A DNA stretch of 34,007 nt from assembly GCA_013152535.1 (NCBI GenBank), contig JAADGE010000048.1, positions 1 to 34,007 on the forward strand. The letters run 5' to 3'. A model generated the notes under the pieces. It ran no database searches. It had not been told where the DNA came from and was given only the letters and a program-made list of their open reading frames with translations. This document shows, one piece after another, positions 10,368 to 24,257 of the stretch. The first letter of the stretch is position 1, and each line of letters starts with the position of its first letter. A program made the translations under genes and the position numbers. This stretch comes from Chlorobiota bacterium (lineage in GTDB: Bacteria; Bacteroidota; Bacteroidia; Bacteroidales; JAADGE01).

Positions 10368-10416
10368 ATTGCCGAAGTTAAATATTTGTATGGTTCAACT
10401 TCGGCAATTCTTTTTT
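10368..10416. terminator. Bidirectional terminator between hisS and the lipase-like gene
   Basis: A 12-bp perfect stem (ATTGCCGAAGTT at 10368-10379 with AACTTCGGCAAT at 10397-10408) has a 17-nt loop and a T-run at 10411-10416 on the + strand. On the - strand the stem is followed by the moderately T-rich ATTTTATT. It sits between the convergent hisS and the T9SS cargo gene, so it can serve both. Confidence 0.85.
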
Positions 10417-13400
10417 AATTCAATAAAAATTTCTTTATTTTAATATCTCCGTCGGAAAGTATTTTTACAAAATAAATACCTGAAGTCAGTTTGTTTAAAT
10501 TAATAACTTCTTTTCCGTTATTAACAGTTCCTGTCTTTATAACTTTTCCGTTTATGTTATAAATAGTGTAGTAAAAATTATTCGGAGCATTGAAGTAAAG
10601 CGTTTTTCCGGAAGCATAAACTGATATGTTATTTTCAGTTAATGAATTTACCTGTAACGCTCCTTTTGTAAAAATTACAGAAAAACGATTTTTGTTAATT
10701 CCTTGATACAGATAAGATTGAGCTATATTATTATTTCTTAAATCATAATTTTTCCCGGATAAATTATCTTTAAGAAAAATATTTATCTCTTCCGGAATAT
10801 TTTTCAAACTGTCAAATTTAAAAGTGTAATTTCCTGCAATGCTTATATCTGTTCCTAAAGGAATTATTGTTTCCGAAGAATGTAAATCCGGTAAAGCCTG
10901 AATTATCAAATCTTTATTTTCACAAACAGAATAAAAAGAAAAATCGTTTTTTATTTTCATTCTTTCGGCATCGTAAAAATTGTCAAAGTCGGAAGTTGCT
11001 TTATCTGTAAAAGCAAGCAGTATATTATTATTAAAATTTTCTCCGGATAAATTAACATATACACGCTTAATTGCTGACCGGGTATTTTTTTTGAAGAAAA
11101 CAGAATTGTTTATCGAGCGTATTGAGTTATTGAAATATACGGTTCCGTTTGAATTAGCTTTAACGAAAAAACCTTGTCCGGGTGCAATATAACCGTTAAA
11201 TAATTTTCCGCTGCCTGTTCCCGACACATACCCCGACAGATTGAATACTTCGTAGCCTTCCGAAGAGTAATCTGGCGAATAATCATCATTCCATAAATAA
11301 ACAGAGCCGTTTATTATTCCGAGATTATTCAAATTAATAAAATTTACAGCTGAAATTGCCGAAGGGTAGGGATTTCCTATAAGGTTCCAGCCGTCGGAAG
11401 TGATTCCAAAACCTGAGTCGGTTACCGGAGTACTTATATTTCCTGTATTCGGTTTTCCCGAAAGTTCAAAATAACTTTGTTCATAAGGACCGTAGTAGGC
11501 ATATCCTTTAGCCTGTTGCATAATTTCGCTTGCTTGTGTCCATCCGTATAACCAATCCGAATTATTTACTGTTTCATCGTAAAAGTAAAAATTAGGATTT
11601 GTATAACCGTTGTTCAGTTGAGTAAAAGCATCGCTGTTTCCGTTGCTTACGTGAGATGATAAATAGTGATATCCCCCGCTTTGCAAATTTCTTTCGAGTA
11701 TTACTGTTCCGTTTCCTGAAATATTTCCGTTGTCAAGGTATGAAGCCGTGTTAACAAAGTCTGATTTCAAAACAATATTTCCGTTCAAAATCATATTATT
11801 GTGTATGTTTACGGAAGCTGTCGGATTTATAGTAAGTTTGGAATTTGCAGGAATTTGCATTTTGTTACAGTCAATGTTTGTGTTAACAGCAGGCATATAT
11901 GAAGCTGTTTCCGAAATGTAAACATCATCATAAATATCAGCAACTCCTTTTGTCCAGTTTCCGGAAGTATTCCAATCGGAGGAAACAACACCCGTCCAAG
12001 AACCCGATACAATATTAAGTGTGTAAGGATGTTTCCATGTTTCCGAAGTTGCAGTTCCGGATATTTTTATATAAATTTCATTTGCTCCGTCCGGAACATT
12101 TACATATAATTTATTCGGAAAACTTGTAACCGGTTTTGAACATAAAACATTTCCCGAAGCATCATAAAAACCAATTGTATGAACTCCCGATAAAGAACCG
12201 TCAATTGTTATTGCAAGTGCATTTTTTCCTGTTGCATCAACTTTAAAAACATCGTCATCGGCAGTTTTTAAATTTTGCTGATAGGTTATGAAGCCGATTA
12301 TCGGTCTGTTATATTTAAGTTTATAAGCTAAATCAAAACGATGAGGCTCATCAATACCGCGAATAATATTATAATAATCAGATTCTTCGCTTGTATGAAA
12401 AATGTTATTTAAGGTTGTGTCTGCAAGACCTGCCGGTGTGGGAGTATTGCTTGAATTGTGCAGCCATTGTCTGTGAATATTGACGGCACCGTCGCCTATT
12501 AAATTTCCGCCCCAATCTGCCCAAATTGAAGTCATGTATGTATATTTAATATTCAAAGGCAAGGGCATCGCCGGATTATAATCGTAAGAATAATAACTTG
12601 CATTAATACCTACAATGTCATCACTTTGGCTGCCGTTGCAGTTTATGTCAACATTATCAAAAGTTGAATTATACCAAACACTTTTTATGCAATATTCGTT
12701 ACCTCCGAACATATATATCCCTTTCGGGAGACCTCCGCAGTTTGTATAATCGTCATATTCCCAAAGTAAATCTCTGTTTGCTTCCGAATCGCCGTTAAAA
12801 TCCGGTACGGTTGATTTGTCTTTTCCCTGTGCAGCTTTTGTGGGGTCAGGTGAAGTATTTGATCCGAGATGCGGTGTTCCGTATGTTGCAACACGGGCAA
12901 CTTTATGTCCGTCAGCTGAATACGGGTCAACCCAATTTGTGTGTATGCCGCTTGAATTTGTTCTTTGCAGGTATTCTCTTATGCAAAGCCCGCCCATTGA
13001 ATGACCGACTAATATAACTTTTTCGGCACCTGTATAATTCAGAACTTCTTGTATCATTTTGCCGAGTGCGTATCCTTGTTTGAAAATTCCGGCTTCGTTA
13101 CTTTTGTCAAAATAGTCGTTCAAAAATCCCCAAGCACCTCTTATTCGTTCTTCCTGAAAATTTATTGCAAAAATATTTGAACCTGTCCAGCCGTCTTTAA
13201 AATTATCTCTTTCGCTGTCATAATTTCTGCGTCCGACATTAATAAAATCACCGCTGTAATAAAAATCTGTCCATTTAACGTCTGAAGACATTAATGAATT
13301 GTCAACATCGTTGTCAGCATTTAAAACAATATCAAAGACATTAATATCTCCGAGATTGTATTGATCTCGTAAATAAGTCATTGTTTCTGCAAAACTTTCA

Positions 13401-13513
13401 TCGCTGCCGGCTAAACCGTGAACAAAAATAACAGGATAAGGTAAATTATTTTGCCCGAATACATTTAGGGACATAAATAAAATGAGTAAGAATGAGTAGA
13501 GTTTTTTTTGCAT
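10415..13513 (-). CDS. Secreted alpha/beta-hydrolase (lipase/esterase-like) with T9SS C-terminal signal
   Basis: This is a protein of about 1032 residues predicted to leave the cell through the type IX secretion system. I start it at ATG 13513, because the next residues form a signal peptide (MQKKLYSFLLILFMSLNVFGQ); the longer reading from 13561 puts 16 unrelated residues in front. The hydrolase domain (about 25-430) has VIFVHGLAG (His32-Gly33) and the nucleophile elbow GHSMGG with Ser172, as in triacylglycerol lipases and lipase-like esterases. The Asp and His of the triad cannot be assigned by eye. A middle region (about 500-900) is rich in Asn, Gly and beta-strand patterns like Bacteroidota surface proteins. 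The last 70-80 residues (YNINGKVIKTGTVNNGKEVINLNKLTSGIYFVKI...KKFLLN) form a type A T9SS sorting domain. The substrate is unknown; PorQ and PorT are encoded in the same window. Confidence 0.85.
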   Translation of the reverse strand: MQKKLYSFLLILFMSLNVFGQNNLPYPVIFVHGLAGSDESFAETMTYLRDQYNLGDINVFDIVLNADNDVDNSLMSSDVKWTDFYYSGDFINVGRRNYDSERDNFKDGWTGSNIFAINFQEERIRGAWGFLNDYFDKSNEAGIFKQGYALGKMIQEVLNYTGAEKVILVGHSMGGLCIREYLQRTNSSGIHTNWVDPYSADGHKVARVATYGTPHLGSNTSPDPTKAAQGKDKSTVPDFNGDSEANRDLLWEYDDYTNCGGLPKGIYMFGGNEYCIKSVWYNSTFDNVDINCNGSQSDDIVGINASYYSYDYNPAMPLPLNIKYTYMTSIWADWGGNLIGDGAVNIHRQWLHNSSNTPTPAGLADTTLNNIFHTSEESDYYNIIRGIDEPHRFDLAYKLKYNRPIIGFITYQQNLKTADDDVFKVDATGKNALAITIDGSLSGVHTIGFYDASGNVLCSKPVTSFPNKLYVNVPDGANEIYIKISGTATSETWKHPYTLNIVSGSWTGVVSSDWNTSGNWTKGVADIYDDVYISETASYMPAVNTNIDCNKMQIPANSKLTINPTASVNIHNNMILNGNIVLKSDFVNTASYLDNGNISGNGTVILERNLQSGGYHYLSSHVSNGNSDAFTQLNNGYTNPNFYFYDETVNNSDWLYGWTQASEIMQQAKGYAYYGPYEQSYFELSGKPNTGNISTPVTDSGFGITSDGWNLIGNPYPSAISAVNFINLNNLGIINGSVYLWNDDYSPDYSSEGYEVFNLSGYVSGTGSGKLFNGYIAPGQGFFVKANSNGTVYFNNSIRSINNSVFFKKNTRSAIKRVYVNLSGENFNNNILLAFTDKATSDFDNFYDAERMKIKNDFSFYSVCENKDLIIQALPDLHSSETIIPLGTDISIAGNYTFKFDSLKNIPEEINIFLKDNLSGKNYDLRNNNIAQSYLYQGINKNRFSVIFTKGALQVNSLTENNISVYASGKTLYFNAPNNFYYTIYNINGKVIKTGTVNNGKEVINLNKLTSGIYFVKILSDGDIKIKKFLLN

Positions 13514-13552
13514 ATCAGAAATTTTTTTTGCTAAGATATGTGTTTTACAGCA

Positions 13553-13582
13553 GATATGCAAATTCTTCGATATGCAAATTTA
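13553..13582 (-). promoter_or_regulatory. Direct repeat and candidate promoter upstream of the lipase-like gene
   Basis: Two identical 12-bp copies of GATATGCAAATT (13553-13564 and 13569-13580, + strand) are separated by CTTC, giving a 16-bp period. On the - strand the upstream copy overlaps TAAATTTG (13575-13582), a match to the -7 consensus. The gene start at 13513 would then have a leader of about 60 nt. The repeat could be an operator or a duplication. Confidence 0.5.
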
Positions 13583-17953: not shown

Positions 17954-18718
17954 TTAATGAAAATATTGTTGATAATTTTGAAGTTTACTTACAGATGATT
18001 GTTTATGCATCATCATTTCTTTTTTATGAGGTTTCAACATTTTATCCGGCGGACTTAAAAACGGTATTCCGAGACCCAAACCTCTCATTACAAATAAAAA
18101 GCCTATTAAAATTATTGTTAACGGAATTAATTTTGATAATTTCTTCTTTGATTTTAAACTGATTTTGCTTCCTAATAAAGAAATAGAAAACATAACAGGT
18201 ATTGTTCCGATACCGAAAATAAACATAAATACAGAGCCGGAAATTGCTCCGCCGGTTGCAATTGCTCCTGCTAAAGCTGCATAAACGGGACCGCAGGGTA
18301 ACAGTCCGTTTAACAATCCGATTAAAAACAAGCTTGTATATGTTCTTTTTCCGAATAGTTTTCCCAGGCGAAAACGTAATTTTCCGACATATTTGAAGGC
18401 ATATTTATCAATGTTAAAACGATTTTTAAAAATAGCAGGGAAAATAACATACAAAATCATCAAAATGCCCATTGTTAATGAAACCCATTTTTGAAATCCT
18501 GCCATTGCAAAACTTTGACCGAAGAAACCGAAAATTAATCCCATTACAGAATAAGTAATTGCTCTGCCGATATTGTAAAGTGCTGCACTGCCGATTTTTG
18601 AAGTTTTACTTTCTTTTTTAAGCGGTAAAGCAACAGCAATCGGTCCGCACATTCCTATACAATGAAAGCCTGTTACGAGTCCGAGAATAAGGGCTGATGT
18701 CAATATTTCAATATCCAT
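17954..18718 (-). CDS. TauE/SafE (UreH-like) family membrane protein of the cbb3 locus
   Basis: This 254-residue protein has six or so membrane segments. Two family hallmarks are visible: GFHCIGMCGPIAVALP (Cys20, Cys24) and LLNGLLPCGPVYAALAGA (Cys142). This subgroup of TauE/SafE-annotated proteins is commonly found in cbb3 operons and is thought to act in metal, probably copper, handling or redox maturation rather than sulfite export. The C-terminal tail (PPDKMLKPHKKEMMMHKQ) is rich in Met and His, compatible with copper binding, which is an inference. It starts with ATG 1 nt after the ccoH stop and is the last gene of the ccoG-ccoH-safE unit. Confidence 0.8.
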   Translation of the reverse strand: MDIEILTSALILGLVTGFHCIGMCGPIAVALPLKKESKTSKIGSAALYNIGRAITYSVMGLIFGFFGQSFAMAGFQKWVSLTMGILMILYVIFPAIFKNRFNIDKYAFKYVGKLRFRLGKLFGKRTYTSLFLIGLLNGLLPCGPVYAALAGAIATGGAISGSVFMFIFGIGTIPVMFSISLLGSKISLKSKKKLSKLIPLTIILIGFLFVMRGLGLGIPFLSPPDKMLKPHKKEMMMHKQSSVSKLQNYQQYFH

Positions 18719-18719
18719 A

Positions 18720-19172
18720 TTATTTTACTTCAATTGTTTTTTCCTGAAAATAAGTTTTATTATTGTATGACCAATCAACTTTAACGGAATACCTGCCTTT
18801 AGGAAAAGTGCTTATATCAATAAATTGGGATGTTTCTTTGTCAAGTTTTATGTTGAATATTTTATCATTTTTGTAACTTTTAATATAGTATAACAAAATT
18901 GTACCTTTAATTTTTTTTCGATTAGAAATAAAAGAAGGAAAGGTAACTTTTAATATATTATTTTTTGTATGAAAAGTTACTTTTTCTTTTAAAGCATTAG
19001 TATTTTTAATTTTATCAATTTTTAAATCATAGGCAATTTCATCCGGAAAATAATCCTCGGTAACTAAGTTAACATCTTTGGTGAAACTAAAAATTACAAA
19101 ACTGATAAAGAAACTTACAAATACAATAATTGTAAGTAATATTCCGGTTCCCCATGTAAATTTAAATTTCAT
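18720..19172 (-). CDS. ccoH: FixH/CcoH-family cbb3 oxidase assembly protein
   Basis: This 150-residue protein has one N-terminal membrane helix (about residues 8-30) and a periplasmic, beta-rich domain. The juxtamembrane DVNLVTEDYFPDEIAYDLKIDKIKNTNAL matches the FixH/CcoH pattern, in which a helix following the membrane anchor carries a conserved Tyr. FixH proteins help assemble and stabilise the cbb3 oxidase. Its position between ccoG and the SafE-like gene supports the call, since the primary sequence is weakly conserved. It starts 11 nt after the ccoG stop. Confidence 0.8.
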   Translation of the reverse strand: MKFKFTWGTGILLTIIVFVSFFISFVIFSFTKDVNLVTEDYFPDEIAYDLKIDKIKNTNALKEKVTFHTKNNILKVTFPSFISNRKKIKGTILLYYIKSYKNDKIFNIKLDKETSQFIDISTFPKGRYSVKVDWSYNNKTYFQEKTIEVK

Positions 19173-19183
19173 TCTTCTGTTTT

Positions 19184-20593
19184 TTAATTATTAATATTCG
19201 GATTTACAAAGTTTGTTTCGGCAGTTTCTATGAGCTTTTTGTTTGAATAGATGTCAAATTTCAGGATTTTACTTTTTTGCTTAAATTCAGATACAGGGAT
19301 GTAAATAAGCATTTTAGGTTCTGTTTTCTCACCGCTCTTAATTGTTAATTTATCTCCGAAAAATTTTATGATTCCTTTAAAATTATTCGGTTTAATTTGT
19401 AAATTAAGATTATTATGGGTTTTATTCAAAATTTTCACATTATAAACATTAATAATCGTGTCGTTTTGGATTTGCGGTAAAATATTTCTGTCTCTTATTA
19501 TATTTGCCTCAACATCGGGTCGGGTCATTAACATTGTTAAAAAGAAAATGACAATTCCTGTTAATAAAACTGTGTATGCAATATTTCGAGGTGTTAATTT
19601 AAAATCTTTTCCGGTTTTAATACCGTTTTCAGAAGCAAATCTAATTAATCCTTTCGGTTTCCCTGTTCTTTTCATTGTTGTGTTGCAGGCATCAATGCAA
19701 GCGGTACAATTTACACATTCTAATTGTGTTCCGTTACGAATGTCAATATTTGCAGGACAAACGTGAACGCACTGTTTACAGTCAATGCAGTCTCCGATAT
19801 TTTCTGCTGCTTCAGTATCTCCTTTTTTTGCAAGTCCTCTCGGTTCGCCTCTTAAATAATCATATGAAACAATGATAGTATTCGGGTCAACCAAAACACT
19901 TTGCAGCCGACCGTACGGACACATTAAAGAACAAACTTGTTCTCTGAACCAAGCGTAAATAAAGTAAAATGCCGAAGTGAAAATAATTAAAGCAATGAAT
20001 CCTGATTTATGTTCGGGGAACGGATGTTTTAAAAAATTTATGACAACTTCAATTCCGAGAATGAATGACAAAAGTGCCGAGACTGTTAAAAAAGAAAAAA
20101 TCCAGAAGACAGTATGTTTCAATATTCGTTTGAATATTTTCTCTAAATTCCAAGCCTGAGCTTTTAATTTTTTTTGCTTTGCAGGTGTTCCGTCAATTAA
20201 CCATTCGACAGGGCGAAAGACAAACTCTGAAAATATGGTTTGCGGACATGCCCAACCGCAGAACAATCTTCCGTAAACCACTGTGAACAGAACAATAAAC
20301 AGAATAAAGGACAACATCATTAAATAAAATAAAAATGAATCCTGAGGCCAAAATATAACACCAAAGATAATGAATTTACGTTCAATTACATTAAAAAGCA
20401 ATAAAGGTTCTCCATGGATTTTTATAAAAGGAATAATAAAAAGAAATGCTAATAATGAATATGCAAAAAGTTTTCTGTAATTGTAAATTCTGCCTTTAGG
20501 TTTTTTTGCATAAACCCAATTTCTTTTTCCTTTTTCATCAACTGTCGAAATAGTATCTCGGAATGTTACTTCGTGATTTTCATCAAGTTTCAT
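19184..20593 (-). CDS. ccoG: Cytochrome c oxidase accessory protein CcoG (iron-sulfur)
   Basis: This 469-residue membrane protein contains two 4Fe-4S ferredoxin-type clusters: CIDCKQCVHVCP (Cys269, 272, 275, 279) and CVNCTACIDAC (Cys293, 296, 299, 303). Several membrane helices lie at about 40-60, 75-108, 160-185, 197-215 and 335-355. Additional cysteine motifs GWACPQT (Cys116) and CSLMCPYG (Cys221, 225) are typical of CcoG/RdxA, which reduces Cu(II) for delivery to the oxidase. A C-terminal Ig-like periplasmic domain (about 360-469) follows, as in full-length CcoG. It is preceded by an intrinsic terminator at 20661-20694, so it may be transcribed separately from ccoSNOQP. Confidence 0.94.
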   Translation of the reverse strand: MKLDENHEVTFRDTISTVDEKGKRNWVYAKKPKGRIYNYRKLFAYSLLAFLFIIPFIKIHGEPLLLFNVIERKFIIFGVIFWPQDSFLFYLMMLSFILFIVLFTVVYGRLFCGWACPQTIFSEFVFRPVEWLIDGTPAKQKKLKAQAWNLEKIFKRILKHTVFWIFSFLTVSALLSFILGIEVVINFLKHPFPEHKSGFIALIIFTSAFYFIYAWFREQVCSLMCPYGRLQSVLVDPNTIIVSYDYLRGEPRGLAKKGDTEAAENIGDCIDCKQCVHVCPANIDIRNGTQLECVNCTACIDACNTTMKRTGKPKGLIRFASENGIKTGKDFKLTPRNIAYTVLLTGIVIFFLTMLMTRPDVEANIIRDRNILPQIQNDTIINVYNVKILNKTHNNLNLQIKPNNFKGIIKFFGDKLTIKSGEKTEPKMLIYIPVSEFKQKSKILKFDIYSNKKLIETAETNFVNPNINN

Positions 20594-20717: not shown

Positions 20718-21305
20718 TTAATTATTCGAATCTGTATTATCCTTTGTATCAGTTACTTTTGGCGGTTGCAGTTTCTGCAGAATGAAAGAAGTTACCTGCA
20801 TCAGCTTTTCATCGGATAATGAGCTGAAAGATGCCATTCCTTTATTTGTTCCGTTTTTAATAGTTTTAAAAATATTTTCAGGTGAATCTCCGTAAATCCA
20901 TTTGTTATCGGTTAAATTAACTCCTATACCTCCTTTTCCTTCAGGTCCGTGGCATGCAGCACAAGATTTTGCATAAGTGGCTGCACCGGCATTCAAGGAA
21001 GTTTCATCAGTTAATAATACAATTTGTTTTGTTCCTGCATCGGATTTTTTATACTTTTTTGCAGCTTCAGCCATCTCAATTTTATATTCTTCGGCTTGCA
21101 AAGGTCCTATATGAAAGAAATGAAAGTATGCAGCATAGCCCAAAGCCCAAAAAACAGTTAAATAAAATAACCACATTAACCAAGGCGGCGGAGGATTATC
21201 CAGTTCTCTGATACCGTCATAATCATGTTCAATCATTAATTTTTGATCGTATTTTTCATTGTATCCTTCAAAAACTTTTTTCGGATATGTTTTTTTATTT
21301 TCCAT
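20718..21305 (-). CDS. ccoP: CcoP-like membrane cytochrome c subunit with a single haem site
   Basis: This 195-residue cbb3 subunit III begins with the CcoP N-terminal motif EHDYDGIRELDNPPPPWLMWLF (about 26-47), then one membrane helix (about 42-64). A periplasmic cytochrome c domain carries one CxxCH (Cys115-Ala-Ala-Cys118-His119) and a likely Met157 ligand. Canonical CcoP is about 300 residues with two c haems; here there is only one, and a second cytochrome domain instead sits at the end of the fused CcoNO. Subunit III passes electrons from soluble cytochromes to CcoO. It starts with ATG, 34 nt after the ccoQ-like gene. Confidence 0.92.
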   Translation of the reverse strand: MENKKTYPKKVFEGYNEKYDQKLMIEHDYDGIRELDNPPPPWLMWLFYLTVFWALGYAAYFHFFHIGPLQAEEYKIEMAEAAKKYKKSDAGTKQIVLLTDETSLNAGAATYAKSCAACHGPEGKGGIGVNLTDNKWIYGDSPENIFKTIKNGTNKGMASFSSLSDEKLMQVTSFILQKLQPPKVTDTKDNTDSNN

Positions 21306-21339: not shown

Positions 21340-21537
21340 TTAATTATTTTTTGGAGAATTATCATTTTTGTCATCATCTAAGGGCATCTCCTTCCATTTT
21401 TTTACATCAGATTTTTTATATCTGATGACCATAATTACAATTATGATAAATATAATTGTAAACAAGACAACAGAGATGTCCGGCCAAATCGTTGCCCATT
21501 TATGGTCTTCTAAATATTTTAATTTATCTCCCAACAT
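21340..21537 (-). CDS. ccoQ: CcoQ-like small cbb3 oxidase subunit
   Basis: This 65-residue protein has one hydrophobic helix (about 20-42, ISVVLFTIIFIIIVIMVI) followed by a charged RYKKSDVKKWKEMPLDDD tail. It lies between ccoNO and ccoP, the usual position of ccoQ (subunit IV). The size, single helix, basic residues after the helix and position support the call; sequence conservation in this family is low. It follows ccoNO by 6 nt. Confidence 0.7.
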   Translation of the reverse strand: MLGDKLKYLEDHKWATIWPDISVVLFTIIFIIIVIMVIRYKKSDVKKWKEMPLDDDKNDNSPKNN

Positions 21538-21543
21538 AATACT

Positions 21544-24030
21544 CTATTTTTGGATTTCTTTTCCTTCCGGATCTTTTCCTTTTTTCGGATTTGTTCCTAA
21601 AAGTGAATATACATAGCTTGCAATTTGTCCTAATTTTTCTTGGTTAAATTGAGACTTATAACCTGTCATAATTCCTGCACCGTCTGAAATAACCTTGAAA
21701 ATATTATTTGCATTACCGCCGTGCAAAGTGAAATTATCACCCAAATTCGGACCTACAACACCTTCACCGTTTGCTCCGTGACATGCGGCACAACTACTTT
21801 TAAAAATTTCCGCACCTGCTTTTAAATCTTCCGGATTTGATGATGCCGTAAAGTTAACGGTTTCTGTTTTTTTATCAGTTGCATTTGATTTATTATCGGC
21901 TGTTGCCAAAGAAATATCCTTTCCGAGTTTATGCAGGTATGCAATCATTGCAATTATTTGTTTATTCCATGCAATATCTTTTCCTGCTTTTTTCAACTCA
22001 GCTGCAATTCCTTCTGCTTGTTTTTTTAAATCTGCTTCAGCTTGGTCTGCATATCCTACAGGATACGGGACTCCCAGCATTTGCATAACTTCAATTTTGC
22101 GTTTTATAGAGCTGTAATCCAAATCATTTTCAAAAAACCACGGATAGGCAGGCATAATTGAACCTTCAATAAATCCTTGCGGGTCTTTAAAATGTTCGTA
22201 ATGCCAAACTGCCGGACGGAACATTTTACCGCCTCGGTATCCTGAACGAGCCAAATCCGGTCCTGTTCTTTTTGAACCCCACTGGAACGGATGATCATAA
22301 ACAAATTCACCTTGTTTGGAGTATTCGCCGTAACGCTCTGTTTCAGAACGAAACGGTCTTATACTTTGAGAGTGGCAAGTATAGCAACCTTCTTTAATAT
22401 ATAAGTCACGTCCTTCGAGTTCAAGCGGAGTGTAAGGTTTAACGGCAGCAATTGTCGGAATATTTGATTTTACGGTAATCATCGGAATAATTTCAACAAG
22501 ACCGCCGACAATAATTGCAATAAGAACCCAAACTGTAAAATGTACAGCTTTTCTTTCAATCCATCTGTGAGGAGTTTCACCGGCAAGACGTTTTTTTGCA
22601 AGTTTTTCTCTCGGTGCCGCATAGGCTTCTTCGTTTTCAATAATATATCCTGATTTAATAGTCTTTATTAAATTAGGTAACATAATTATTATACCGGTAA
22701 TATATAAAATACCGCCGATTATACGTGTTATGTACATCGGAATGATTTGTGTAACGGTATCCAAAAATTCGGGATATGCCAAATAACCGGCATCTGTAAA
22801 TTCTTTCCACATTAATGTTTGTGTAAATGCTGCCCAATATAAGGGTACAGAATATGCCAACATCCCTAATGTTCCTATCCAGAAATGTGTATTAGCCGAT
22901 TTTTCGGAATGTAATTTTGTATTAAATAATTTTGGTATTAACCAGTAAAGCATACCGAAAGTCATAAATCCGTTCCAACCCATTCCGCCGATGTGAACAT
23001 GTGCAATAGTCCAATCAGTAAAATGCGTAAATGAATTAACTGTTTTAATAGAAAGCATCGGTCCTTCAAAAGTTGACATACCGTATGCGGTTACTGCAAC
23101 AACAAAAAATTTAAGTACGGCACTTTCTCTCACTTTGTCCCAAGCACCTCTTAATGTTAACAAACCGTTTAACATTCCTCCCCAAGAAGGTGCGAGCAAC
23201 ATTATAGAGAATACAACACCTAAAGTTTGTGCCCAATCCGGTAATGCTTGATATAATAAATGGTGCGGACCTGCCCACATGTATATAAATATCAAAGACC
23301 AAAAATGTATGATAGATAATCTGTATGAATAAATCGGTCGATTAGCAGCTTTTGGTAAGAAATAGTACATTAAACCGAGAAAAGGGGTTGTTAAAAAGAA
23401 AGCAACGGCATTATGACCGTACCACCATTGAACGACAGCATCTTGAACACCTGCATAAACTGTATAACTTTTAAAGAAATTAACAGGTATCTCAATTGAA
23501 TTTCCAATGTGTAGAACAGCAACAGCCACAAAACTTGCTAAAAAGAACCAAATTGCAACATAAATATGTTGAACACGCCTTTTTAATAAGGTTCCAATCA
23601 GGTTCCATCCGTATGATACCCATACAATTGCAATTAAAATATCTATAGGCCATTCTAATTCAGCATATTCTTTACTTACCGTAATGCCGAGAGGTAAAGT
23701 TATTGCAGCGAGAACAATAATAAGTTGCCAGCCCCAAAAGTTGAACTTGCTCAGAAAATCACTGAACATTCTTGCTTTTAATAATCGCTGAACGGCATAA
23801 TATGAACCTGTAAAAATGGCATTACCCGTAAATGCAAAGACAATGGCATTCGTGTGTAAGGGTCGGATGCGACCGAAAGTCAGCCAAGACAAATTTAAAT
23901 TCCACGAAGGAAATGCAAGTTCTGTTGCAGCCCATAAGCCGACTAACATTCCTACAATTCCCCAGAAAATAGTGGCATAGGCAAACAATTTTACAATTTT
24001 GTTGTCATAATAAAATTTTTCTTGTATCAT
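21544..24030 (-). CDS. ccoNO: Fused cbb3 oxidase subunits CcoN-CcoO with an extra C-terminal cytochrome c domain
   Basis: This 828-residue membrane protein is the catalytic core of the proton-pumping cbb3 terminal oxidase. Residues 1-460 form CcoN: His59 (PLHT, haem b ligand), H206 in WWYGHNAV (CuB), Tyr250 (the helix VII cross-link tyrosine), His256/His257 in WAGPHHL (CuB) and H344/H346 in HVHIGG (haem b3/b), spaced as in Pseudomonas stutzeri CcoN. Residues 490-700 form CcoO, with a membrane helix (about 495-517), CYTCH (549-553) and Met626 (SIMPAYPW). After a 30-residue linker, residues 735-812 form a second cytochrome c domain with CAACH (747-751) and a likely Met788 ligand. N/O fusions are known in Bacteroidota; the added haem domain is the unusual part. 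The ATG overlaps the end of ccoS by 4 bp. Confidence 0.95.
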   Translation of the reverse strand: MIQEKFYYDNKIVKLFAYATIFWGIVGMLVGLWAATELAFPSWNLNLSWLTFGRIRPLHTNAIVFAFTGNAIFTGSYYAVQRLLKARMFSDFLSKFNFWGWQLIIVLAAITLPLGITVSKEYAELEWPIDILIAIVWVSYGWNLIGTLLKRRVQHIYVAIWFFLASFVAVAVLHIGNSIEIPVNFFKSYTVYAGVQDAVVQWWYGHNAVAFFLTTPFLGLMYYFLPKAANRPIYSYRLSIIHFWSLIFIYMWAGPHHLLYQALPDWAQTLGVVFSIMLLAPSWGGMLNGLLTLRGAWDKVRESAVLKFFVVAVTAYGMSTFEGPMLSIKTVNSFTHFTDWTIAHVHIGGMGWNGFMTFGMLYWLIPKLFNTKLHSEKSANTHFWIGTLGMLAYSVPLYWAAFTQTLMWKEFTDAGYLAYPEFLDTVTQIIPMYITRIIGGILYITGIIIMLPNLIKTIKSGYIIENEEAYAAPREKLAKKRLAGETPHRWIERKAVHFTVWVLIAIIVGGLVEIIPMITVKSNIPTIAAVKPYTPLELEGRDLYIKEGCYTCHSQSIRPFRSETERYGEYSKQGEFVYDHPFQWGSKRTGPDLARSGYRGGKMFRPAVWHYEHFKDPQGFIEGSIMPAYPWFFENDLDYSSIKRKIEVMQMLGVPYPVGYADQAEADLKKQAEGIAAELKKAGKDIAWNKQIIAMIAYLHKLGKDISLATADNKSNATDKKTETVNFTASSNPEDLKAGAEIFKSSCAACHGANGEGVVGPNLGDNFTLHGGNANNIFKVISDGAGIMTGYKSQFNQEKLGQIASYVYSLLGTNPKKGKDPEGKEIQK

Positions 24031-24257
24031 ACATCTTTAATTTTATTGGTTTCAGTATTTTTTTGATTTGTATTATCAGATTTTTCAGGTTCTTTTTCTT
24101 CGTTTTCGATATTCGGATTGTTATCGTCAAACAAAATTCTTACGGAAGGTGTGTAATCATCATCAAACTGACCGTCTTTTACAGACCAGATATACAGGAA
24201 TAAAAATATTAATGCAACAATAAGACTAAAACCTATTAATATGAAAATTACAATCAT
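24027..24257 (-). CDS. ccoS: cbb3 oxidase maturation protein CcoS
   Basis: This 76-residue protein has one N-terminal membrane helix (about 2-25), then the CcoS signature YIWSVKDGQFDDDYTPSVRILFDD (about 27-50), and an acidic, Asn/Glu-rich tail. CcoS is needed for haem b and CuB insertion into the catalytic subunit. It is the first gene of the cbb3 operon and overlaps ccoNO by 4 bp (ATGA-type). A near-consensus -7 sequence, TATTTTCG, lies at 24284-24291 on the - strand; no cleaner promoter is seen downstream of the FNR-type palindrome. Confidence 0.9.
   Translation of the reverse strand: MIVIFILIGFSLIVALIFLFLYIWSVKDGQFDDDYTPSVRILFDDNNPNIENEEKEPEKSDNTNQKNTETNKIKDV

Follow-up and report, generated by a model that had tools for sequence, protein, structure and literature searches.

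The fused oxidase gene

The stretch of DNA analysed here (the window; 34,007 nucleotides, positions 1 to 34,007 of contig JAADGE010000048.1 in the Chlorobiota bacterium assembly GCA_013152535.1) carries a gene cluster for a cbb3-type oxidase, in which CcoN, CcoO and an additional C-terminal cytochrome c domain are encoded by a single 828-codon open reading frame. Such a protein is referred to below as a triple fusion, and the CcoN-CcoO fusion devoid of the additional domain as plain CcoNO. The triple fusion is a real, maintained variant of a known enzyme, found in some Bacteroidales, and its added domain, judged from sequence comparisons, probably arose as a CcoP-type domain copied onto the end of CcoO and probably acts as a built-in carrier or an entry haem. 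An earlier reading of the window (the original prediction) had reported both the fusion and a separate 195-residue CcoP with a single CAACH motif; the coordinates, length and motifs of the fusion are exact, and the one-haem CcoP was confirmed by its motif and by Pfam.

Pfam assigns COX1 (residues 11-442), FixO (488-706) and Cytochrome_CBB3 (735-807) to the fusion, and FixP_N (24-66) with one Cytochrome_CBB3 domain (104-175) to CcoP. The fusion holds two CxxCH motifs, at 549 and 747, and CcoP one, at 115. Columns H59, H206, Y250, H256, H257, E322, H344 and H346 of the fusion are invariant across 44 homologues, and we take these residues to be the ligands of haem b, haem b3 and CuB together with the active-site tyrosine and glutamate. 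The scores for CcoN (TIGR00780, 642.7 bits against a cut-off of 583.15) and for mono-haem CcoO (TIGR00781, 224.4 bits against 200.65, with one CxxCH within the FixO region) assign the predicted enzyme to the C-family (cbb3) oxygen reductases. It departs from the canonical form in two respects: CcoN and CcoO share one open frame instead of being separate, and CcoP, with 195 residues and one CxxCH, stays at 87.3 bits below the 179.95-bit cut-off of the TIGR00782 equivalog for di-haem CcoP. The features of the cluster are listed in Table 1.

Table 1. Features of the cbb3 oxidase cluster; positions are those of the window
Feature	Position	Strand	Remarks
Fused oxidase gene (CcoN-CcoO-cytochrome c)	21544..24030	minus	828 aa, ATG start, one open frame
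CcoN part, about residues 1-470	22621..24030	minus	haem/CuB ligand residues present
CcoO/FixO part, residues 488-706	21913..22569	minus	Pfam FixO
Haem c motif CYTCH, residues 549-553 of the fusion	22372-22386	minus	
Linker, residues 707-733	21832..21912	minus	low predicted confidence, fast evolving
Added CcoP-type cytochrome c domain, residues 734-812	21595..21831	minus	
CAACH, residues 747-751 of the fusion	21778-21792	minus	
One-helix protein in the CcoQ position	21340..21537	minus	65 aa, named by position only
ccoP	20718..21305	minus	195 aa, FixP_N and one cytochrome c domain
Single CAACH of CcoP, residues 115-119	20949-20963	minus	
ccoS, assembly gene	24027..24257	minus	4-base overlap with the start of the fused gene
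ccoG	19184..20593	minus	
FixH/CcoH family gene	18720..19172	minus	
DsbD_2 membrane protein gene	17954..18718	minus	end of the cluster

Distribution of the triple fusion

Altogether, 32 distinct triple fusions were collected, the one in the window and 31 in other genomes. The two CxxCH motifs lie 191-208 residues apart in 31 of them and 234 apart in the remaining one, L010; this protein of a congener (L010:1501-4092) is longer, with 864 residues. In L114, also among the 32, the CcoN part is broken by a TGA codon in the assembly. Of the 21 genomes of the window's family (f1), 12 match at an E-value of 1e-50, each with a triple fusion; the other nine, some of them incomplete, have no fused-oxidase match at that value.

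In an even sample of the order (Bacteroidales in the GTDB sense, as seen from members such as Prolixibacteraceae), 74 of 393 genomes match; 67 of these have a full-length match, comprising 20 triple fusions and 47 plain CcoNO, and the remaining seven hold fragments or a distant CcoN only. In a sample of the phylum 271 of 395 genomes match, and among the matches listed the window's own alone passes query residue 747. The five longest frames listed in that search, L200-L204, were considered as triple fusions and rejected, their sequences being those of plain CcoNO. No match extends beyond query residue 720 in the phylum of L055 (titled Neomarinimicrobiota; 28 of 149 genomes match) or in that of L040 (titled Calditrichota; 24 of 40). 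A scan of named genomes gave five triple fusions among the best 80 of 591 loci; some of the five recur in the other genome samples, and two are from Maribellus strains without a metagenome-assembly label. The triple fusion is established in the order Bacteroidales, and none was seen outside it among the groups sampled.

Haem content of CcoP and phylogeny of the core

The number of haem motifs in CcoP was compared over 191 distinct sequences (32 triple fusions, 154 plain CcoNO and five proteobacterial outgroups), from which exact duplicates and L136, the same gene as L010, had been dropped. Beside triple fusions CcoP carries one haem motif in 31 of the 31 loci whose sequence covers it; the sequence of the 32nd, L123, ends 626 bases downstream. 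The search for homologous fusions with two CxxCH motifs, which the original prediction had proposed together with a haem count of the neighbouring CcoP, thus returned one-haem CcoP throughout and not a single two-haem one.

The same state prevails beside plain CcoNO, where CcoP has one CxxCH in 143 of the 154 loci, two in four and none in three, and was not found in four. Two of the three CcoP without the motif are cut by the end of the sequence, and the third, L106, is split in two frames, with the motif present in only one of these. Three of the four loci without CcoP end within 400 bases, and in the fourth, L199, there is none within 1982 bases. All five proteobacterial outgroups have a CcoP with two CxxCH motifs. 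In families f131 and f136 of the phylum an unfused CcoO adjoins a CcoP-like protein with one CxxCH in the eight loci read, these neighbours being called CcoP from their place and sequence, without a family search or tree placement. In L238-L245 of these families the one-haem neighbours of unfused CcoO are 166-210 residues long. In the four two-motif CcoP beside plain CcoNO, the additional cytochrome c domain is either N-terminal to FixP_N (L074:8208-9596, L098:8365-9834 and L104:8286-9524), a different way to gain a third c haem, or follows the CcoP domain (L150:99-1328), in which case it is by eye unlike the second domain of the proteobacterial protein.

One-haem CcoP is older than the triple fusion, since it occurs beside plain CcoNO as well as beside unfused CcoO, and by its distribution it is likely to be older than the CcoN-CcoO fusion too. 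Given the predominance of one-haem CcoP among the Bacteroidota loci read, a cbb3 oxidase can apparently do without the second CcoP haem.

Phylogeny was addressed with core sequences from which the added domain was excluded. In the large tree (149 sequences after an identity filter) all 29 triple rows fall inside one 46-row clade, supported at 97 in the Shimodaira-Hasegawa-like approximate likelihood ratio test and nested deep in plain CcoNO, and the triple/plain label needs seven changes. Seven changes are also needed in a careful tree of 57 rows, at least five of them forced by well-supported branches, and in that tree the plain L171 pairs with the triple L119 at 100/100. In this Bacteroidota group two c haems are the baseline and the third is a later addition, made without any loss from CcoP, because one-haem CcoP accompanies both plain CcoNO and unfused CcoO and because the triple fusions nest inside plain CcoNO. 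Decayed or split remnants of the domain were sought downstream of plain CcoNO in 19 loci of the triple clade, and the best 30 tblastn matches all fall on the haem domain of the neighbouring CcoP. Another same-strand frame with a CxxCH motif is present within 1500 bases in 21 of the 154 plain loci; most of these frames are ccoG-sized, by length alone (469-545 aa), and four are short.

Origin and conservation of the added domain

A search of the PDB with the added domain gave CcoP chains as the best matches, and among the pure cytochrome families of NCBIfam ccoP is the best for the window's domain (56.2 bits, against 44.5 for the next). Of 44 aligned proteins (28 triple, 16 plain), 25 match ccoP at 1e-10, the two kinds not being told apart in this count. 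In pairwise comparisons all 29 added domains lie nearer to CcoP than to the remaining cytochromes c. Averaged over 136 Bacteroidota CcoP domains, their scores surpass the highest score with any of 41 other-cytochrome rows (a panel taken from PF13442 and earlier matches, with three repeats and seven rows from one multihaem protein) in 29 of 29 cases, and the highest with any of 10 CcoP domains of proteobacteria in 28 of 29. The mean scores of the added domains are 175.7 with Bacteroidota one-haem CcoP, 105.9 with the first domain of proteobacterial CcoP and 109.2 with the second. In each of six genomes the organism's own CcoP outscores all of the other cytochrome domains sampled there (1-10 per genome). 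A CcoP tail motif, picked after inspection of the sequences, is present in 11 of the 29 added domains and 64 of the 136 Bacteroidota CcoP; it recurs in one of 72 other full-length CxxCH stretches, which turned out to be the CcoP of genome G040.

The CcoP type ascribed to the domain in the original prediction is in this way upheld by NCBIfam, PDB matches and pairwise scores alike. As for the trees of the C-terminal domain that it had called for, the added domains do group with CcoP on the drawn tree (91 columns), apart from most soluble or ActE-like cytochromes, but the formal tests do not discriminate. Since all 29 added domains score higher on average with Bacteroidota CcoP than with any other-cytochrome row, a copy of the haem domain of that protein is the best reading.

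In the window and eight congeners alike the frame is uninterrupted. In seven overlapping within-genus pairs the ratio of nonsynonymous to synonymous substitution rates (dN/dS) of the added domain is 0.08-0.21, and the domain is under purifying selection. The corresponding ranges are 0.04-0.06 in CcoN, where one pair is saturated, 0.04-0.14 in CcoO and 0.17-0.43 in the linker. Because of the 31 further fusions, the steady CxxCH spacing, the open frame in congeners and the low dN/dS, misassembly or chance is excluded. A methionine follows 40-75 residues past CxxCH in all 29 added domains (rows for which the presence of CxxCH was itself a selection criterion), and Met788 is the probable sixth haem ligand in the window's protein. 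An AlphaFold model of the fusion, based on the 44-row alignment, reached a mean predicted local distance difference test score (pLDDT) of 75.4 and a predicted template modelling score of 0.73. The CcoN fold was obtained and the added domain has moderate to good confidence; the linker (706-724) has pLDDT below 50, and the CcoO haem region is poor, with residues 550-587 likewise below 50.

Proposed role in electron transfer

In Rhodobacter capsulatus the CcoP haems are the point at which electrons are taken up by cbb3 before proceeding to the CcoO haem and haem b, and a soluble carrier has been proposed to feed the second CcoP haem and an anchored carrier the first (PMC7876108). The second-haem entry site is missing in the enzyme described here, since its CcoP has one haem. 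In a lineage with an already one-haem CcoP, the haem half of CcoP would have been copied in frame onto the end of CcoO. As the C-terminus of CcoO is periplasmic, the added domain would be placed on the electron-input side, held by a flexible tether. There it would most likely take up electrons from alternative complex III, or from the monohaem carrier of the latter, and hand them on to the CcoP or CcoO haem, from which they would reach haem b and then b3-CuB. An input wire of three c haems would be formed again in this manner, by way of a subunit other than the one that contributes the second CcoP haem in Pseudomonadota. Of the two consequences named in the original prediction, a changed electron route would be plausible, and the stoichiometry of the added domain is indeed fixed by the fusion.

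Among the genomes searched, NrfD, a family including complex III subunits, is found in 11 of 11. The source genome has three NrfD matches, with a cytochrome c gene adjoining one of them, and lacks a match to PF13631, a cytochrome b family. In two of the 11, the distance between an NrfD gene and the triple-fusion gene is 1.9 kb (G018:C307) and 4.5 kb (G040:C145). For Flavobacterium johnsoniae a mobile membrane-anchored haem domain of ActA has been proposed as the link through which complex III feeds cytochrome aa3 (PMC8552683). It may tentatively be imagined, with the odds against it, that Bacteroidota and close phyla have a two-c-haem cbb3 wire to which a third haem was re-added repeatedly, on CcoO or at the N- or C-terminus of CcoP, and that the CcoO form would be caa3-like, fed directly by alternative complex III without a diffusing carrier.

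Weighing of the alternatives

Several observations weigh against a copied CcoP domain that serves as a built-in carrier or entry haem. The grouping of triple fusions as a single clade is rejected on the careful core tree (approximately unbiased test, p-AU 2.8e-87), and the 48-row set that holds them, chosen against nine outgroup rows, has only moderate support there (92/78). As the triple fusions are not monophyletic, gains, losses or exchange of the domain must have occurred in some mix, and the history is either one gain followed by several losses or more than one gain. Because plain CcoNO are nested among the triple fusions, the results suggest that the added domain is dispensable. On the domain tree one long-branched soluble cytochrome stands among the added domains. 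With too few columns in that tree, placing the added domains on one side of a branch together with soluble (p 0.82) or with ActE-like cytochromes (p 0.68) was not rejected; the constrained tree beat the free one in both tests, so the free tree search was poor. A single origin of the added domain was, with the same few columns, neither rejected (p 0.377) nor shown. As regards the electron donor, PF13631 scores above its cut-off in 8 of 40 genomes, four of them with triple fusions (G018, G040, G164 and G326), so the type of complex III is not uniform. The cytochrome b match at G018:C123:10397-10891 reads through six TGA codons. The number of Cytochrome_CBB3 matches outside cbb3 is 2.65 per genome in 20 triple-fusion genomes versus 2.85 in 20 plain ones (p 0.82), with two and one, respectively, subtracted for the cbb3 domains by assumption and with genomes of mixed kinship. 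The idea that the added domain replaced a lost soluble cytochrome was rejected, since separate CBB3-type genes are no fewer in triple-fusion genomes.

In the original prediction the added domain was explained by relocation: an ancestral two-haem CcoP would have lost its second domain to the end of CcoO, with three c haems throughout. A total of three as in Pseudomonadota, the CcoP type of the domain and its alignment to the second-domain end of TIGR00782 (192-283 of 285) agree with this, but one-haem CcoP is found beside plain CcoNO and unfused CcoO, the triple fusions are nested inside plain CcoNO, and the added domains score higher with Bacteroidota one-haem CcoP than with either proteobacterial CcoP domain. 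Neither the move from CcoP nor the conserved total of three haems survives these data; the phylogeny and haem counts together rule relocation out, and we give it hardly any credence. Several independent fusions, in which CcoP would have been copied onto CcoO separately in different lineages of the order, are a serious though less favoured possibility. They would account for the seven changes and the rejected single clade, for the two types of C-terminal end, one of which has the CcoP tail while the other lacks it, and for the failure of the added domains to form one clade on the drawn domain tree. On the other hand, one origin of the domain was not rejected, the CxxCH spacing is near-constant, and truncation makes loss easy, so that one gain with several losses fits too.

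The remaining alternatives concern function. It is rather unlikely that the domain marks a branch point at which electrons are diverted away from the oxidase towards a different periplasmic acceptor. A precedent is the third CcoP haem domain of Neisseria gonorrhoeae, which sustains electron flow to nitrite reductase (PMC2924362); the CcoP-like nature of the added domain, as opposed to an origin from another carrier, is a weak counterpoint. Less probable still is a near-neutral appendage, tolerated and binding haem but contributing little. The domain is indeed absent in nested relatives and is less constrained than CcoN, and than CcoO in all seven pairs, but the dN/dS values and the methionine conserved in 29 of 29 domains speak against such a role. 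The preferred reading remains that of a CcoP-type domain copied to the CcoO C-terminus, where it would serve as a built-in carrier or entry haem.

Gene neighbourhood

The genes of the cluster follow one another on the minus strand in the order ccoS, fused oxidase gene, CcoQ-position protein, ccoP, ccoG, FixH gene and DsbD-like gene. Family searches with the 65-residue one-helix protein in the CcoQ position gave no match. Elsewhere in the window, positions 10415-13561 encode a protein of 1048 residues that combines an alpha/beta-hydrolase region with a Por secretion tail and may be a lipase-like enzyme that is exported.

Comparison with known systems

The CcoN-CcoO part of the fusion is shared with the CcoNO family PRK14485 (NF011053), which it matches with 1217.9 bits against a cut-off of 1080. 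The 716-position model aligns to residues 3-715 and stops before the added domain, so that instead of ending after CcoO the window's protein continues for 113 residues, including the cytochrome c domain. The CcoN-CcoO fusion is usual in the phylum, and CcoNO fusions are described in PMC5492636. Searches of the open-licence PubMed Central literature, covered mostly at listing level, turned up no account of either the triple fusion or a one-haem CcoP. The order CcoO followed by a cytochrome c domain occurs also in PRK14486 (NF011054; subunit II/cytochrome c), and since that family exists, a CcoO-cytochrome c fusion is already a named kind. Its 294-position model lacks CcoN, unlike the fusion in the window, which aligns to it over residues 491-809 with 253 bits, below the cut-off of 447; no protein above this cut-off was found in 61 genomes of the phylum or in 14 controls.

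In textbook descriptions the CcoP of a cbb3 oxidase carries two haems. The canonical enzymes of Pseudomonas stutzeri (3mk7) and Rhodobacter capsulatus (6xkw) are homologous to the window's protein over most of CcoN and CcoO and have three c haems in total; they differ in that CcoN and CcoO are separate and CcoP is di-haem, as in the five proteobacterial loci read. In caa3-type oxidases a cytochrome c is fused to subunit II; these resemble the triple fusion in having a tethered carrier domain and differ from it in oxidase family and in the subunit concerned. The tri-haem CcoP of Neisseria, as described in PMC2924362, is alike in bearing an extra C-terminal cytochrome c domain on a cbb3 subunit, one that was lost again in one lineage; there, however, the domain is on CcoP, derives from cytochrome c5 and brings the total to four c haems. 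In the engineered CcoP-cytochrome cy fusion of R. capsulatus (PMC7876108), a tethered cytochrome c carries electrons of complex III, but that protein is man-made and the tether is on CcoP. PMC2924362, on the basis of the IPR004678 annotation, states the di-haem form for all CcoP except that of Neisseria; this fails in the Bacteroidota loci read, where one-haem CcoP dominates. Relatives with and without the third haem domain, e.g. L119 and L171 of the same family, form natural matched pairs in which the effect of an extra entry haem on a cbb3 oxidase could readily be tested.

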